This document shows positions 12,804 to 59,853 of a stretch of 64,000 bases of DNA, piece by piece; positions within the stretch are counted from its first letter, which is position 1; each line of letters opens with the position of its first letter. The stretch comes from Nakamurella leprariae. Lineage in GTDB: Bacteria > Actinomycetota > Actinomycetes > Mycobacteriales > Nakamurellaceae. Made by a program: the position numbers and the translations under genes. The notes beneath the pieces are model-generated. The model was not told where the DNA came from, searched no databases, and was given only the letters and a program-made list of their open reading frames with translations. The stretch lies in the NCBI RefSeq assembly GCF_016918035.1, contig NZ_JAERWK010000027.1, positions 1 through 64,000 on the forward strand. The letters run 5' to 3'.

Positions 12804-14837
12804 ATGCCGTCGGACCGCCTCGTCGCCCGCGCCGCACGATCCGGCCCGGAACCGACCGGATCCGCTGTACCCGTACGCGCGCTCGAGGTGGAGACCAAGC
12901 TGGAACTACCGGGTCCGGACGACGGCGCGACCCTGCCGGTGGCCGGCCTGCTGACGGGCAGCGAGGGCCTCCGGCGGGTGGGCGTGGCGTCGGTCGCCGA
13001 GCCGTCGGTCCGCGAGCTGGACGCCTGGTACTTCGACACGGACCGCTTCGACCTGCTGGCGGCGCGCGCGACCGCACGCCGACGGACCGGCGGGCCGGAC
13101 GCCGGATGGCACGTCAAGCTGCCTCCGGCTCCGGGCAGCGACGGCCGCACCGAACTGCACTGGCCGCTCGACGACCCGTCCGGCGCCGACCGGATCCCGG
13201 ACGCCGGCTCCGGCGCCGTGCCGCCGCCGGGGATGGCCGCCGTGCTGCGCGGTACCGCACGCGGGCGGAACCTGCGCCCGATCGCCCGGTTGCGCACCCG
13301 TCGCACCGTCCACCTGCTGCTGGACGCCGACGGGAGCACGCTGGTGGAGGTGGCCGAGGACGAGGTGGCGGCGTCCGCCTTCGACTGGGACGCGGACACG
13401 GTCACCCCGGTGCCCGGCAGCCAGCGCCCCAGCCGGTGGCGGGAGCTCGAGGTCGAACTGGTCGCCGGGACCACCCAGCAGCTCGCCGCCACCGTCGCGG
13501 TGCTGACCGGGGCCGGCGCGCGTCCGTCACCGTCGGTGTCGAAGCTGCGCCGGGCCCTGGAGGCGCCCGTCGAGCCGATCAAGCCCGGCAAGAAGACCAA
13601 GGACGGCAAGACCGGGAAGGCAGCCCGTTCGGGCAAGGACAAGGTCAGCGACAAGAGCGGGGCCAGGAGCGGCAAGGACCGGTCGGCGGTCGATCGCACC
13701 CCGCCGGACCGCATCCGGGACGAGCTGGTGACCACACTCCGCCGGTACCGGGACGCCCTGGTGGTGGCGGACCGTGCCGTCCGCATCGCCCTGCTCGACG
13801 TGGAGGCCGGCGCTCATCCGGGTTTCCCCGGGCACCACCACCTCACCGCCGTCCGGGACCTGCTCACCGCCGGCCGGCGCTGCCGCGGCGTCGCGCTGGC
13901 GTTCGGTCCGTTGCTCGGCGGGCCGACGGCACCGGCTCGGGCCGGCGGCGCCGACCTGTCCGCGACCGGCGCCGCGATCGACGCGGCGATCGATGCCGGC
14001 ATCCGGGAGGTGGGCCGCGCCGGCACCGCGCTGCTGCGCCGCCAGGAGGCCCTCGCCCGGGTGTCACGTCAGCTCGCCGACGAACCCGAGCCGTACGCCG
14101 GCCGGGCCCGGACCCTGCTCGATCCCGAGCTGCTCGCTCCGGAACCGGATCCCACCCTGCTCGATCCCACCCTGCTCGATCCCACCCTGCTCAATCCCGC
14201 GACCCTCGATGCCGCCCTGATGGATCCGGCGCCGCTCGATCCGGCGCGTCCGGTTGACCGCTCCAGCACCGCCGACGCGGTCGATCCGGTGGCCGAACTG
14301 ACCCGCGCGCTGGACGATCCGGCGCTGTTCACCTCGTTCCGGGCGATCGACGACCTGCTGGTCCCGCGACCGGACGGTGGTGACGCGCGCGGCCCGCTGA
14401 CCGCGGACGACGTGGTCGCCGGGGTCGCGGCCGTCTTCGCCGGACTGACCGACGCGGTGCACGCCGCCGGGATCGACGGCCACAGGCCGGAGGCGACGCA
14501 GCCGGTCGCCGTGCAGCGACTGGCGGACGCCGCCGCAGTCGTCCGGGCCGCGCTCGAGGCGGTCGTCGAGCCGCTGGGTGATGACGCGGCCGTGCTGGCC
14601 GCCGGCGTGGAGGAGATCGAGGAGTCGGCCGAGGAGTACCTGGCCACCCGGCGGACCGGGGTGCTGCTGGCCGAACTGGCGTTGCGGCCGGCCGCCGATG
14701 GCGCGGCGGGCTTCGTCCTGGGCCGGTTGCACGCCTTCGAGGAAGCCTTCGCGCTCGGTGCCGCCGACGACCTGCGCGACGCCTGGCACCGGGTGCTGGA
14801 CGCGGCGCTCACCGCGAGACTGGCCGCGGCGCACTGA
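12804..14837 (+). CDS. CYTH and CHAD domain-containing protein
   Basis: Protein of 677 residues. Residues ~20-250 form a CYTH (triphosphate tunnel) domain: E-V-E-T-K-L-E-L near 31 is the ExExK signature, followed by D-A-W-Y-F-D-T, W-H-V-K-L-P and R-W-R-E-L-E-V-E-L strands. A Lys/Gly/Ser-rich linker (~255-295) leads to an all-helical region (~297-677) with His/Arg-rich segments (P-G-H-H-H-L-T-A-V-R-D-L, R-R-T-G-V-L-L-A-E-L) that fits a CHAD domain. CYTH domains bind triphosphates or polyphosphate, and CHAD domains bind polyphosphate, so a link to polyphosphate metabolism is likely. A pentapeptide repeat tract interrupts the CHAD part. AAGGAG precedes ATG 12804. Divergent from clpB across the HAIR site. 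Confidence 0.85.
   Translation: MPSDRLVARAARSGPEPTGSAVPVRALEVETKLELPGPDDGATLPVAGLLTGSEGLRRVGVASVAEPSVRELDAWYFDTDRFDLLAARATARRRTGGPDAGWHVKLPPAPGSDGRTELHWPLDDPSGADRIPDAGSGAVPPPGMAAVLRGTARGRNLRPIARLRTRRTVHLLLDADGSTLVEVAEDEVAASAFDWDADTVTPVPGSQRPSRWRELEVELVAGTTQQLAATVAVLTGAGARPSPSVSKLRRALEAPVEPIKPGKKTKDGKTGKAARSGKDKVSDKSGARSGKDRSAVDRTPPDRIRDELVTTLRRYRDALVVADRAVRIALLDVEAGAHPGFPGHHHLTAVRDLLTAGRRCRGVALAFGPLLGGPTAPARAGGADLSATGAAIDAAIDAGIREVGRAGTALLRRQEALARVSRQLADEPEPYAGRARTLLDPELLAPEPDPTLLDPTLLDPTLLNPATLDAALMDPAPLDPARPVDRSSTADAVDPVAELTRALDDPALFTSFRAIDDLLVPRPDGGDARGPLTADDVVAGVAAVFAGLTDAVHAAGIDGHRPEATQPVAVQRLADAAAVVRAALEAVVEPLGDDAAVLAAGVEEIEESAEEYLATRRTGVLLAELALRPAADGAAGFVLGRLHAFEEAFALGAADDLRDAWHRVLDAALTARLAAAH
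14148..14252. repeat. Seven 15-bp repeats coding for D-P-x-x-L pentapeptides
   Basis: Seven in-frame 15-base units, the first three identical (GATCCCACCCTGCTC), then progressively diverged, encode DPTLL, DPTLL, DPTLL, NPATL, DAALM, DPAPL, DPARP (residues ~449-483 of the CYTH-CHAD protein). Identity fading along the array suggests expansion from one end. Confidence 0.9.
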
Positions 14838-39731: not shown

Positions 39732-40313
39732 TCAGGGCGTCCGCAGCACGCTGCGGATCGCGGTGTCCAGCACGCCGCGCTCCTGGTCCGGGTCGAGCCG
39801 CTCGAACGGCACGGCGCGCGAGACGGAGATCCCGTCGACCACGGTGAGCAGGAAGTCGGTGTGCCCACGCACCGACCCCTCGGCCAGCACGCCCTCCTCG
39901 CGCAACAGCTCCAGCCAGGTCGTACCGCGTTCCCGGGCCCGGGTGGCCGCGGCGCCCCATGCCGTCCGGCCGGCCTCCGGACCACCCGGCCGGAGGATGT
40001 CGGCCAGCAGGATGATCCAGCTCGGGTTGCTCGAGTCGTCCGACTGCAGGGGCGGGAGCAGCTGCTCCAGGCACTCCCGCAGTCGCTCGTCGGCCGGCAC
40101 CGAGCGGTCCCGGATGCGGAAGTCACTGATCAAGCCGTCCGCGCCGGCGTCGAAGACGGCGCGGAACAGGTCGCGCTGGGTCGGGAAGTAGTGCCGCAGG
40201 GTGCTGGCCCCCAACCCGGCCCGCGCCGCCACCGATCGGACGCTCAGCGTGCCGTCCCCCTCGGCCAGCAGCGACTGTGCCGCCTCGATGATCTGTGTCC
40301 GCCGGTCGCCCAC
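39732..40313 (-). CDS. TetR-family regulator
   Basis: Repressor of about 193 residues. N-terminal TetR helix-turn-helix: R-R-T-Q-I-I-E-A-A-Q-S-L-L-A-E, L-S-V-R-S-V-A-A-R-A-G-L-G-A-S-T-L-R-H-Y-F-P-T-Q-R-D-L (~6-52). The C-terminal helical domain with G-G-P-E-A-G-R and V-V-D-G-I-S-V is TetR_C-like. GTG 40313 follows GGGAGG by six bases; the reading frame continues upstream through the microsatellite but without a start signal. Divergent from an ABC efflux pair, with candidate operators in between, so it most likely represses both itself and the pump. Confidence 0.92.
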   Translation of the reverse strand: MGDRRTQIIEAAQSLLAEGDGTLSVRSVAARAGLGASTLRHYFPTQRDLFRAVFDAGADGLISDFRIRDRSVPADERLRECLEQLLPPLQSDDSSNPSWIILLADILRPGGPEAGRTAWGAAATRARERGTTWLELLREEGVLAEGSVRGHTDFLLTVVDGISVSRAVPFERLDPDQERGVLDTAIRSVLRTP

Positions 40314-40352
40314 GCCGTTCCTCCCGTCCCCTGCTGACCGGCCCACCCTAGC

Positions 40353-40391
40353 GGCACACTGTGCTGGCACGCTGTGCTGGCACACTGTGCT
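40353..40391. promoter_or_regulatory. Three tandem 13-bp operator-like repeats
   Basis: GGCACACTGTGCT, GGCACGCTGTGCT and GGCACACTGTGCT follow without gaps. Each holds the near-palindrome GCACA-C-TGTGC. They begin 40 bases upstream of the TetR start codon. A 13-base period puts successive centres a little over one helical turn apart, so several repressor dimers could bind cooperatively. Likely the operator of the TetR/ABC divergent promoter. Confidence 0.7.
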
Positions 40392-40405
40392 AACTTCGGG
40401 TACGG

Positions 40406-40426
40406 CGTTGGTACGCCGTACCAACG
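40406..40426. promoter_or_regulatory. Perfect 10-1-10 inverted repeat, TetR operator candidate
   Basis: CGTTGGTACG-C-CGTACCAACG is a perfect inverted repeat of the size TetR dimers bind. It overlaps a second perfect pair, GGTACGGCG (40399-40407) with CGCCGTACC (40414-40422), so two alternative dyads share the same DNA. Both lie on the pump side of the 13-bp repeats. Confidence 0.7.
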
Positions 40427-40452
40427 GCAGCCGCGGGCGACGACCGCCACCC

Positions 40453-40521
40453 GCCACCGCCACCGCCGCCACCGCCACCGCCACCGCCACCGCCACCGCC
40501 ACCGCCACCGCCACCGCCACC
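40453..40521. repeat. GCCACC hexanucleotide microsatellite in the pump leader
   Basis: Two copies of GCCACC (40453-40464), a GCC interruption, then nine uninterrupted copies (40468-40521) end 16 bases before the ABC ATPase ATG. Arrays of this length can gain or lose units by slippage, changing the distance between operator/promoter and ribosome site. It is not part of a credible protein on either strand (minus-strand reading gives Ala-Val repeats). Confidence 0.95.
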
Positions 40522-40537
40522 GATCCGAGAGGCGCAC

Positions 40538-41431
40538 ATGTCCACGACTGCGGTCATCGACGTCGAGCACCTGAACCTGCAGTACGGCGACTTCCACGCC
40601 GTCCGTGATCTGTCCTTCCAGGTGCGGCGGGGCGAGCTCTACGCCCTGCTCGGCACCAACGGCGCCGGCAAGACCTCGACCCTGGAGATCATCGAGGGCC
40701 ACCGGGACGCCACCTCCGGCACCGTCCGGGTGTTCGGTGAGAGCCCGCGCGACCGGCGCGCCGTCCGACCGCGGATCGGCGTGATGTTGCAGGAGAGCGG
40801 GTTCTCCCCCGATCTGACGGTGCGCGAGTCGGTCGGCCTGATCGGGACGCTCAGTGGCCGCACCGACGTCGTCGAGCGGGTGCTCGACGTCGTCGGCCTG
40901 ACGACCAGGGCCCGCACCCGGGTCGCCCAGCTCTCCGGCGGCGAGAAGCGGCGGCTGGACTTCGCGACCGCCGTCTGGGGCACGCCCGAGCTGGTCGTCC
41001 TGGACGAACCGACCACCGGGCTGGACATCACCTCGCGCGACGATCTGTGGGCGTCGGTGGACCGGCTCCGCGAGCACGGCTCGACCGTGGTGCTCACCAC
41101 CCACTACCTGGAGGAGGCCCAGCAGCGCGCCGACCGGATCGGGCTGATGCACCAGGGCGCGCTGATCCGCGAAGGCACCGTCGCGGAGTTGACCGCGACG
41201 CTGCCCGCATCGATCCGATTCGCCCTGCCGGGCACGACGACGGCCGGCCCCGTGCAGGTGCCGGTGGCCGCCACCCGGCAGCCCGACGGCCGCCTCCTGG
41301 TCGAGACCTTCGACCTGCAGGGCGATCTGCTGACCCTGCTGACCTGGGCGCGAGCCAACGACATCGAACTGCAGCAGCTCGACGCCGGGCCGACCCGGCT
41401 CGACGACGTCTTCCGCGCCGTCTCCGCCTGA
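40538..41431 (+). CDS. ABC transporter ATP-binding protein (drug-efflux type)
   Basis: ATPase of 297 residues. Walker A G-T-N-G-A-G-K-T-S-T near 39-48, Q-loop V-M-L-Q-E-S, signature L-S-G-G-E-K-R-R-L near 133-141, Walker B L-V-V-L-D-E-P-T-T-G-L-D and switch His in L-T-T-H-Y-L-E-E-A. The C-terminal domain with L-V-E-T-F-D-L-Q-G-D-L and L-D-D-V-F-R-A is typical of DrrA-like exporters. GAGAGG lies before the ATG, just past the microsatellite. The permease partner follows at 41481. Presumably exports a toxic compound and is repressed by the divergent TetR protein; the substrate is unknown. Confidence 0.93.
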   Translation: MSTTAVIDVEHLNLQYGDFHAVRDLSFQVRRGELYALLGTNGAGKTSTLEIIEGHRDATSGTVRVFGESPRDRRAVRPRIGVMLQESGFSPDLTVRESVGLIGTLSGRTDVVERVLDVVGLTTRARTRVAQLSGGEKRRLDFATAVWGTPELVVLDEPTTGLDITSRDDLWASVDRLREHGSTVVLTTHYLEEAQQRADRIGLMHQGALIREGTVAELTATLPASIRFALPGTTTAGPVQVPVAATRQPDGRLLVETFDLQGDLLTLLTWARANDIELQQLDAGPTRLDDVFRAVSA

Positions 41432-41480: not shown

Positions 41481-42200
41481 GTGCTGTCCATCGCCTCGAG
41501 TGAACTGATCCAGATCTTCCGCAACCGGCTGGTGCTGGTGACCAGCCTGGTGATGCCGGTCGCGGTCAGCGCGTTCTTCATCTATCAGCACGAGACCTTC
41601 ACCCAACTTGGCAGTCTCGGCTACATCGCCGCCATCGTGATGTTCACCGTGCTGGCCTTCGGCCTGTACACGACGGCGGTCACCACCCTGGCCTCCCGCC
41701 GGCAGAACCTGTTCCTCAAGCGACTGCGGTCCACCGCGGCGAGCGACGCCGGCATCCTGTCCGGTCTGCTGCTGCCGGTGACCGTGATCGCGGCCGTCCA
41801 GATCGTCGCCATCCTGGTCGTGCTGGCGGTGGTGACCACCACGCCGGCCGACATCGCGCTGCTCGCCGCCGGTCTGATCGCGACGGTGGTGATGATGATC
41901 GGCCTGGCCCTGGCCACGGCCGGGGTGACCAACTCACCGGAGCACGCACAGGTGACGACCCTGCCGATCAGCCTGGGCGTCATCGCCGTGGCCAGCTGGG
42001 TGGGCATCGCCGGCACGGAGGAGCTGACCCTGCTGAAGCGGCTGCTGCCGGGCGGCGCCGCCACCGAGCTGGTGTCGAACGCGTGGAACGGCGGCGTCCC
42101 GCTCACCGAGTCGCTGCTGCTGCTGGCGCCCACGCTGGCCTGGGTCGTCGTCGCGATCGCCCTGGCCGCCCGGATCTTCCGCTGGGAGCCGCGGCGCTGA
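41481..42200 (+). CDS. ABC-2 type transporter permease
   Basis: Membrane protein of 239 residues with six predicted helices (around 20-38, 48-66, 95-117, 122-146, 155-173 and 212-232), the layout of ABC-2 permeases. F-R-N-R-L-V-L-V near 13-20 and L-K-R-L-R-S-T near 78-84 match the cytoplasmic elements contacting the ATPase; L-P-G-G-A-A-T-E-L near 190 is also common in these exporters. GTG 41481 has AGGAG five bases ahead. Partner of the ATPase 49 bases upstream. Confidence 0.9.
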   Translation: MLSIASSELIQIFRNRLVLVTSLVMPVAVSAFFIYQHETFTQLGSLGYIAAIVMFTVLAFGLYTTAVTTLASRRQNLFLKRLRSTAASDAGILSGLLLPVTVIAAVQIVAILVVLAVVTTTPADIALLAAGLIATVVMMIGLALATAGVTNSPEHAQVTTLPISLGVIAVASWVGIAGTEELTLLKRLLPGGAATELVSNAWNGGVPLTESLLLLAPTLAWVVVAIALAARIFRWEPRR

Positions 42201-42295
42201 CCCCAGCGCACTGACCCACGCCGCTGACCCACGGCGCTGACCCCCCGCGGCACCATCCGCGCAATTCTGGAGAAGCACCGACCGGGCCGCGCCCC

Positions 42296-57750: not shown

Positions 57751-59853
57751 ATGCCCATGCCGACGTCCGAGCCCGCCGCCCGCCTACCCGCGTCCACGCG
57801 GGCCGGGCGGGTGGCCCGCGCCGTCGGGGTGGCGCTGCTGCTGCTCGTCGGCGGTGCGCTGAGCGCGCCGTCGGCGGGTGCGACCCCGCCGTTCCGGCTG
57901 CCGCAGCCGATCACCGACCAGGTCGGGGTGCTAGGCACCGACACCGCGGCGGTGCAGTCGGCGATCTCGGACCTGGAGACCCAGCGGCAGATCCAGTTGT
58001 GGGTGGTGTACGTCGAGACGTTCGACGGGCAGGACGGGAACGCTTGGGCGGCCTCTACTTTCGACGCCTCCGGCTTCGGGTCGGACGCGATGGTGTTGGC
58101 GGTGGCGGTCAACGACCGCGCGTACGGCTACTGGTCTGCAGACGAGTTCCCGCTGACCGAGACCCAGCTCGACACCGTCGTCACCGACGAGGTCCGACCG
58201 CAGCTGTCCCAGGGTGATTGGAGCGGAGCGGCGATCGCGCTCGCCGACGGCCTGAACCAGAGATCCAGCGGCAGCAACTCCGGCGCGATCATCCTCGGCG
58301 CTGGCGCCGTGGTGCTGCTCGGCGGTGGTGGCTGGCTGCTCTACCGGCGGTCCCGCAAGCACAGGACCGAGCACGCCGGTGCCACCAGCGCCGAGCCGGA
58401 GGAGCCGTTCCAGCAGCTGTCCGACCGCAGCGTGGCCGCGCTCATCGAGACCGACGACGCGGTGCGCCGCAGCGAGTTCGAGCTGTCGGCGGCGCGGGAC
58501 CAGCTCGGCGCGCCGGCCACCGCCCCGTTCCAGCAGGCGTTCGAGGCGGCGCGGGCCTCGCTGACCGCGGCCTTCGAGCTGCGCCAGCAGATCGACGACG
58601 AGGTCCCGGAGAGCGAAGCCGATCGCCGCCGGATGATGCAGGAGATCCTGCGCCGGTGCGCCGAGGCCGACGCCAGCCTGGACGAGCAGAGCGCCGAGTT
58701 CGAGGCGCTGCGCGACCTGAAGACCCGCCTGCCGGAGGTCGTGGCCCAGCTGCCCGGAGAGATCCAGGCGCAGCGCGCCCGGGTGCCGGGAGCGACCGAG
58801 ACCCTGCGGTCGCTGCAGCAGCGGTTCTCCCCGGCGGCGCTGGACACCGTGCTGGACAACGTCACGGAGGCCGAACGGCGGCTGGAGTTCGCCGACGAGG
58901 CCGTGCGGGAGGCCACCGACGCGCCCACCGCGACGGAGTCCGGTGGCTCCGACACGGTGGCCGCCGCGACGCCCGCGGCAGCCGCGGATCCGGCCCTCGC
59001 GGCCTCTGCCCTGGCCAGTCCGGCGGTGCCGGCCGTGCTGGCCGCCCGGCGGGCGCAGGAGTCGGTGGCCCAGGCCCGCACCCTGCTGGACGCCATCGAC
59101 CGGACCGGACGAGACCTGGCGGACGCCGCCGCCCGGCTGACCGGAGCCACCCATGCGGTGCGCGCCGAACTGGCCCAGTGCCGGACCGCCCTGGCTCAGG
59201 CGCCGACCGGGGCGGCCGCGGGCGACCTCACCGGACGGATGGACCAGGTGGAGGCGGTGCTCGCGGTGGCCGACTCGGCCGCGGGGACCGCCGATCCGCT
59301 GACGGCGCTGGCCAAGGTGCAGGAGGCCGACCAGGCGCTGGACGTCATCCTGGCCAACACGCTGTCCGCCCAGCAGTACCAGGAGCGCGCGGCGACCCAG
59401 CTGCAGCAGGCGTTCAGCACCGCCCAGGCCGAGGTGGCCCAGGCCGAGGACTACATCGGCACCCGCCGCGGTGCGGTGCTGGCCCAGGCCCGGACCCGGC
59501 TCACCGAGGCCCATCGGCACCTGGACCGGGCGGCCGGTATGGCCGGAGCCGACCCGGACGGTGCGCTGCAGGAGGCGCAGCAGGCGCGCACGCTGGCCCG
59601 AGAGGCCATCCGGCTGGCCCAGTCCGATGTCTCCGGTTTCAGCGGCGGGTCCCGCGGCGGCGGTAGCGATTTCGCCGGGGCTCTGATCGGCGGCATCCTC
59701 GGCGGGATGCTGTCCGGCGGCAGCCGCCGCGGTGGCGGCTACGGCGGCGGGTTCGGCGGCGGCTACCGCGGCGGCGGCTTCAGCGGCGGCGGACGTGGCG
59801 GCGGCGGCAGCTTCGGCGGAGGAGGCGGGCGCGGGGGCGGCGGACGCTTCTGA
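57751..59853 (+). CDS. TPM-domain membrane protein with Gly-rich tail
   Basis: Protein of 700 residues. Signal peptide (~1-46, cut near A-G-A-T), then an extracytoplasmic TPM domain (~50-165): I-T-D-Q-V-G-V-L, Q-L-W-V-V-Y-V-E-T-F-D-G, then a turn and A-V-A-V-N-D-R-A-Y-G-Y. One membrane helix (~178-197) is followed by a long cytoplasmic, Glu/Gln/Ala-rich coiled-coil region (~215-620) and a Gly/Ser-rich C-terminus (~635-700) ending in G-G-G-G-R-F. TPM proteins are linked to photosystem repair in plants and to membrane-protein quality control or cell-envelope roles in bacteria; the exact role is open. GGGAGGGA seven bases before the ATG. Confidence 0.88.
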   Translation: MPMPTSEPAARLPASTRAGRVARAVGVALLLLVGGALSAPSAGATPPFRLPQPITDQVGVLGTDTAAVQSAISDLETQRQIQLWVVYVETFDGQDGNAWAASTFDASGFGSDAMVLAVAVNDRAYGYWSADEFPLTETQLDTVVTDEVRPQLSQGDWSGAAIALADGLNQRSSGSNSGAIILGAGAVVLLGGGGWLLYRRSRKHRTEHAGATSAEPEEPFQQLSDRSVAALIETDDAVRRSEFELSAARDQLGAPATAPFQQAFEAARASLTAAFELRQQIDDEVPESEADRRRMMQEILRRCAEADASLDEQSAEFEALRDLKTRLPEVVAQLPGEIQAQRARVPGATETLRSLQQRFSPAALDTVLDNVTEAERRLEFADEAVREATDAPTATESGGSDTVAAATPAAAADPALAASALASPAVPAVLAARRAQESVAQARTLLDAIDRTGRDLADAAARLTGATHAVRAELAQCRTALAQAPTGAAAGDLTGRMDQVEAVLAVADSAAGTADPLTALAKVQEADQALDVILANTLSAQQYQERAATQLQQAFSTAQAEVAQAEDYIGTRRGAVLAQARTRLTEAHRHLDRAAGMAGADPDGALQEAQQARTLAREAIRLAQSDVSGFSGGSRGGGSDFAGALIGGILGGMLSGGSRRGGGYGGGFGGGYRGGGFSGGGRGGGGSFGGGGGRGGGGRF

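Follow-up and report, generated by a model that had tools for sequence, protein, structure and literature searches.

The window analyzed here, a stretch of 64,000 nucleotides from Nakamurella leprariae, contains a tetR gene and a divergently oriented ABC pump operon that are separated by 13-bp repeats, overlapping palindromes and then a GCCACC array. The elements of the locus are as follows.

39732-40313, minus strand: tetR, a TetR/AcrR-type repressor of 193 aa (TetR_N and BetI-type TetR_C_6 domains) with a GTG start, from Pfam and the starts of homologues
40345-40350, minus strand: candidate tetR -10 box TAGGGT, from the sequence, 2 nt off the operator array
40353-40391, no strand: three predicted tandem 13-bp operator copies (40353-40365, 40366-40378 and 40379-40391), all perfect matches to RGYACRNYGTRCY
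40391-40396, plus strand: candidate pump -10 box TAACTT, from the sequence, with the last base of operator copy 3 in common
40399-40411, plus strand: degenerate copy or half-site GGTACGGCGTTGG, overlapping the next site, with 3 mismatches to the consensus and a matching left half
40408-40424, no strand: isolated full 17-bp predicted operator TTGGTACGCCGTACCAA, a consensus match with its core at 40410-40422, 31 bp from copy 3
40443-40522, plus strand: GCCACC hexanucleotide array of 2 + 9 perfect units with one GCC interruption and flanking partial units
40527-40532, plus strand: candidate ribosome-binding site GAGAGG of the pump ATPase gene, from the sequence
40538-41431, plus strand: ABC transporter ATPase of 297 aa, DrrA-like (Pfam PF00005; best NCBIfam match TIGR01188, drrA, below cut-off)
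41481-42200, plus strand: ABC-2-type permease of 239 aa (PF12698 and PF01061, both below the Pfam cut-off)

A preliminary description of this DNA had reported three gapless, near-palindromic 13-bp repeats, two overlapping perfect inverted repeats and an 11-copy GCCACC array ending just before the ribosome site of the pump. The repeats are present at 40353-40391, where the units GGCACACTGTGCT, GGCACGCTGTGCT and GGCACACTGTGCT start at 40353, 40366 and 40379 without gaps, each near-palindromic and the first and third holding a perfect 11-bp core GCACA-N-TGTGC. The two inverted repeats likewise occupy 40399-40426, with arms at 40399-40408/40413-40422 and 40406-40415/40417-40426. For the array, the count holds, with nine uninterrupted perfect copies at 40468-40521 and two more at 40453-40464, but one GCC sets the two groups apart; a twelfth unit lies at 40446-40451. 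The array indeed ends 4 nt from GAGAGG, ahead of the ATG at 40538. Elsewhere in the window, an imperfect period-13 tandem array of CGCTGACCCACGC (42195-42243, 3.7 copies), unrelated in sequence to the operator, starts at the permease stop codon and precedes a glyoxalase-fold gene, and TRF detects tandem repeats at 14148-14242 and 59715-59843 (period 15, GATCCCACCCTGCTC; a CGG-rich 27-mer array).

The product of tetR scores 30.8 bits against TetR_N (PF00440, cut-off 24) and 30.1 bits against PF13977 (cut-off 27), which assigns it to the TetR/AcrR family. Its AlphaFold2 model (pLDDT 80.5) is nearly all helix and has TetR-family regulators as its best Foldseek matches (TM about 0.5-0.7), in agreement with a TetR fold; sequence matches in the PDB are distant only. 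The perfect 17-bp palindrome and the stack, which are kept with the clade described below, would provide the palindromic operator beside its own gene that is characteristic of this family. The recognition helix region reads GASTLRHYFPTQRDL. Identification as BetI was rejected (22.8 bits for the NCBIfam equivalog against a cut-off of 201.3), as was identification as FasR, for which the score is far under the cut-off. The GTG start has GGGAGG 6 nt upstream (40320-40325). A longer tetR reading frame of 262 aa from 40520, in which the hexamer is read as (AV)n, was discarded: homologues start near 40313, and this frame would turn the operators into coding sequence.

We fetched homologues of this TetR, read the DNA upstream of their genes and derived a consensus from those loci. 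The consensus site is RGYACRNYGTRCY, with a full form TTAGYACRNYGTRCTAA that is seen where the site stands alone (for example, TTAGCACAATGTGCTAA in locus L032). One to four copies, usually abutting, are located directly upstream of tetR in Microbacterium, Herbiconiux, Serinicoccus, a Nocardioidaceae MAG and Cryobacterium, and stacked sites share their outer CTAG/CTGG bases with their neighbours at 13-bp spacing. In the window, the palindrome at 40408-40424 and each of the three 13-bp repeats match the core without mismatch; perfect RGYACRNYGTRCY sites are expected at 0.0055 per kb under a second-order Markov model of the window, and four are observed within 70 bp. According to pattern searches, on which the counts for the organism's own genome rest, the perfect TTRGYACRNYGTRCYAA occurs once in 4.47 Mb, at 40408-40424, and the perfect tandem pattern at this locus only.

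A profile built from nine of these TetRs and run on 395 genomes of the class Actinomycetes detected the clade in 28 of them; locus L062, where the profile match fell on the wrong stretch, was set aside. A site with at most one mismatch is present within 200 bp upstream of tetR in all 34 clade loci, a count that, like those that follow, measures association and not independent trials, the homologous loci being partly interrelated. Abutting 13-bp copies, up to five in a row, occur in 18 of the 34, and the other 16 have spaced or single sites only; stacking is thus common but not obligatory. The intervals between neighbouring sites are exactly 13 bp in 28 of 43 cases and at least 24 bp in the rest, with none of 14-23 bp. 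In held-out loci, which were not used for the consensus, perfect sites numbered 29 in the 5.8 kb ahead of tetR and 2 in the other 97.6 kb, a 244-fold enrichment. When the perfect two-unit tandem was searched without reference to the protein, it was found in 7 of the 395 genomes (0 for the reversed control pattern), in 6 of these 7 directly upstream of a clade tetR gene (Fisher p 5e-7); the seventh match, inside an NRPS-like coding region, is apparently due to chance. Upstream of the TetRs at the edge of the profile, which have another recognition helix (L069-L071), no site was found. The longest stack, of five abutting copies (L010, positions 2128-2192), precedes the gene for a clade TetR about 35% identical to ours in a genome of the same genus; divergent from that tetR is a gene for a predicted membrane protein that matches no Pfam family.

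These comparisons bear on the claim that the elements of the window form an operator array for the TetR, which comparative footprinting strongly supports, albeit in a simpler form than proposed, palindromes and repeats being predicted to represent one site type. The operator part of the preliminary description was right, as judged from homologous loci, and more general than its author could see from the window. Literature searches on the operator sequence, on TetR together with GPP34 and on tandem operators of TetRs did not turn up this operator; a specific predicted operator can now be assigned to a TetR clade for which no description was found.

The genes divergent from the clade tetR genes encode GPP34 and DUF418 proteins, Rce1-like proteases, a protein with a weak small-multidrug-export match, and unnamed proteins, the usual neighbours being GPP34 or membrane-protein genes. 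Because the divergent genes vary among the homologues, the TetR is the common factor. In 12 loci (L025, L026, L028-L030, L046-L048 and L050-L053), tetR is divergent from genes for GPP34 (Golgi phosphoprotein 3-like) proteins, several of them apparently leaderless, with two of the proteins assigned by Pfam and the rest by sequence similarity; this arrangement suggests a conserved repressor-GPP34 module in actinobacteria. In six Microbacterium/Herbiconiux loci (L025, L026 and L028-L031), the arrangement is GTGCTAANNT: the last operator copy runs into TAANNT, and the start codon follows 7 nt (in one case 6 nt) past this motif, which suggests that TAANNT is the -10 box of a leaderless message. The window has the same operator/TAANNT junction, GTGCTAACTT, from which pump transcription would begin near 40403, with the isolated operator spanning about +6 to +22. 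The predicted start of tetR transcription, on the minus strand, is near 40338. A TANNNT motif like the candidate tetR -10 box is also found near the proximal site in homologous loci. Scans for sigma-70 promoters and terminators found none, and the promoters are placed from the TANNNT boxes only.

The TetRs nearest to that of the window (L048 and L050-L052, up to 52% identity) adjoin a GPP34 gene and have two sites, which lie 31-33 bp apart in the loci in which the pair can be recognized. The window keeps a 31-bp spacing (40379 to 40410) and has two extra proximal copies. Each of its three copies agrees with its neighbours at 12/13 positions, compared to a mean of 9.7/13 for adjacent copies generally and 9.2 between loci; these values suggest that duplication was recent in the window, and that in other loci the register is under selection. 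The stack was probably built up by local duplications, starting from one ancestral proximal site.

The pump has a different distribution. The ATPase has orthologs at 29 loci in the genus and the class (67-76% identity), followed in nearly all other genomes by the permease (62-80% identical). Neither the clade TetR nor its operator was found upstream of the 29 orthologous pump loci; orthologous pumps of the genus had been considered as carriers of the same operator, and this possibility was dismissed. Within our genome sample, only the window combines this TetR with the pump. From this sample, which also sets the direction, we infer that the TetR-operator module joined the pump in this lineage. 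Such an event would represent a rewiring of a regulator to a new target, whereby a pump that elsewhere lacks this repressor is now under it in one lineage. A different element, similar to CCAGTGACRCYRCGTCAT, precedes the start codon of the orthologous pump ATPase by about 75-105 bases at L018, L019, L083, L084, L087, L090, L094, L095, L098 and L099, and resembles a response-regulator site conserved in this pump family. At L018 and L019, which share a GTGACRCYRCGTCAT-like element, the divergent gene encodes a histidine-kinase-like protein (named from sequence).

Several alternative explanations of the locus were considered. The 13-bp array and the GGTACG palindrome could be two operators, the former serving autoregulation by one regulator and the latter binding another that acts on the pump: the groups differ in sequence (GCACA..TGTGC versus GGTACGNCGTACC) and flank the inferred pump -10 box on opposite sides. 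However, both fit one degenerate consensus, and the layout of a distal site and a proximal stack is common to many loci. Furthermore, GCAC- and GTAC-type copies alternate inside one gapless stack, for example at L010, L024 and L031; given this mixture in homologous stacks, the two groups of the window are best read as one site, and we consider a second operator unlikely. That the 13-bp array is a functionless by-product of slippage would fit the near identity of the three window copies, as after recent duplication, but is highly improbable considering that the register and the palindromic core are kept across genera despite the divergence of the copies, and only upstream of this TetR clade. 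The palindrome and the 13-bp repeats of the window are, on the comparative data, four copies of one predicted operator.

The other alternatives involve the GCCACC array, which lies between the operator and the ribosome site, within the inferred pump leader. The preliminary description envisaged that slippage here alters the length of the leader and renders pump expression phase-variable or graded. In favor of this view, the nine perfect units belong to the only (CCACCG)4 array of this genome, in which NucS is present and MutS was not found; given that NucS does not repair indels (PMC8228993), changes in the length of the array are plausible. However, gain or loss of a hexanucleotide in a leader leaves the reading frame unchanged, and none of the 29 orthologous pumps examined has the array upstream. 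Among 17 genomes of the genus, 6, counting the present one, have arrays of at least four units; in the five others they are located elsewhere than at the pump, those examined being in long open frames. Control by slippage thus finds no support in these comparisons, and we regard it as quite unlikely. Being C-rich and G-poor, the array could alternatively set pump expression at a step after transcription initiation, either as a loading site for Rho or as an unstructured standby site for translation: the 80-nt stretch from 40443, with 53 C and 14 G, shows the largest C-minus-G excess of the window on either strand (about 40; mean 0.5, sd 7.3). This composition, though, is a trivial consequence of the repeat unit, orthologous leaders do not conserve the array, and Rfam has no match above a family cut-off in the region, with one below-threshold miRNA match outside the leader, so that such a role also appears improbable. 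Coding of the pump N-terminus by the array was rejected, there being no in-frame start codon upstream. The array looks like an ordinary leader microsatellite, for which the comparisons revealed no regulatory role. The strong part of the original finding, the operators, is thereby separated from the weak part, phase variation through the microsatellite.

Taken together, we believe with considerable confidence that the locus is best explained by one TetR operator type stacked over both promoters, in a module that was joined to the pump, next to what looks like an ordinary microsatellite. Dimers of the divergently encoded TetR would bind the 13-bp repeats and the palindrome. The operator region holds several copies of this predicted site next to each other, and dimers side by side on the three-copy stack would cover the tetR -10 box on one side and the pump -10 box (TAACTT) on the other, blocking both promoters. 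A further dimer on the isolated site would strengthen repression of the pump, and the stacked occupancy would produce a tight, probably cooperative switch, from which a ligand of the BetI-type C-terminal domain would release the promoters. In this scheme, binding, cooperativity and ligand release are modeled on TetR biology (PMC9210681, PMC4150764, PMC3993263, PMC5812520); graded or cooperative repression, in particular, would follow from the fixed 13-bp register by analogy with known multi-dimer TetR repressors. With a spacing of 13 bp, adjacent 17-bp sites have outer bases in common, so the dimers would be about a quarter turn apart; contact between adjacent dimers is our guess. The pump could have other regulators as well. 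A bolder generalization, which we consider possible but somewhat doubtful, is that this TetR clade assembles as a chain of dimers on 13-bp ladders whose number of rungs, from 1 to 5, varies between species and tunes repression, the ladder having been moved here onto an ABC pump promoter and lengthened. The natural series of 1-5 predicted operator copies could be used to measure the effect of site number and 13-bp spacing on repression and cooperativity.

Among known systems, RaaS and EthR were likened to the window by operator layout. EthR of Mycobacterium tuberculosis, which controls ethA, differs in having another operator sequence and longer repeats. It binds cooperatively, as an octamer, to a 55-bp operator of direct and inverted repeats (reviewed in PMC9210681). 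RaaS (Rv1219c) of M. tuberculosis/BCG is, like the regulator of the window, an actinobacterial TetR repressor tied to ABC efflux genes, with an operator beside its own promoter that consists of two direct repeats, each an inverted repeat and both needed for binding (PMC3993263). However, the RaaS repeats are of 12 bp and of another sequence (within GATGAACGTACGTTTA and TGAACATGCGTTCA) and are separated by the -10 box, with the genes in one operon (PMC3993263), whereas the copies in the window abut and the genes are divergent. QacR, CgmR, RolR, CprB and MS6564 place two dimers on each operator, cooperatively in QacR and CprB (PMC9210681, PMC4150764); these operators have a fixed length of 22-32 bp, in contrast to the 1-5 sites on a 13-bp ladder in the present clade, where the copy number differs between species. 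SimR/simX involves an MFS pump, and the part of the source available to us describes single SimR dimers on 17 bp and no tandem stack (PMC5812520). The pump itself resembles DrrAB-type ABC exporters, in that drrA (TIGR01188) is the best match of its ATPase in NCBIfam and an ABC-2-like permease comes next; at 196.5 bits against a cut-off of 312.45, the ATPase falls outside the daunorubicin-type DrrA family. Thus, multi-dimer TetR operators are already known from EthR, QacR and RaaS, and what is new is the predicted clade-wide 13-bp ladder of variable length, found here with an ABC pump.
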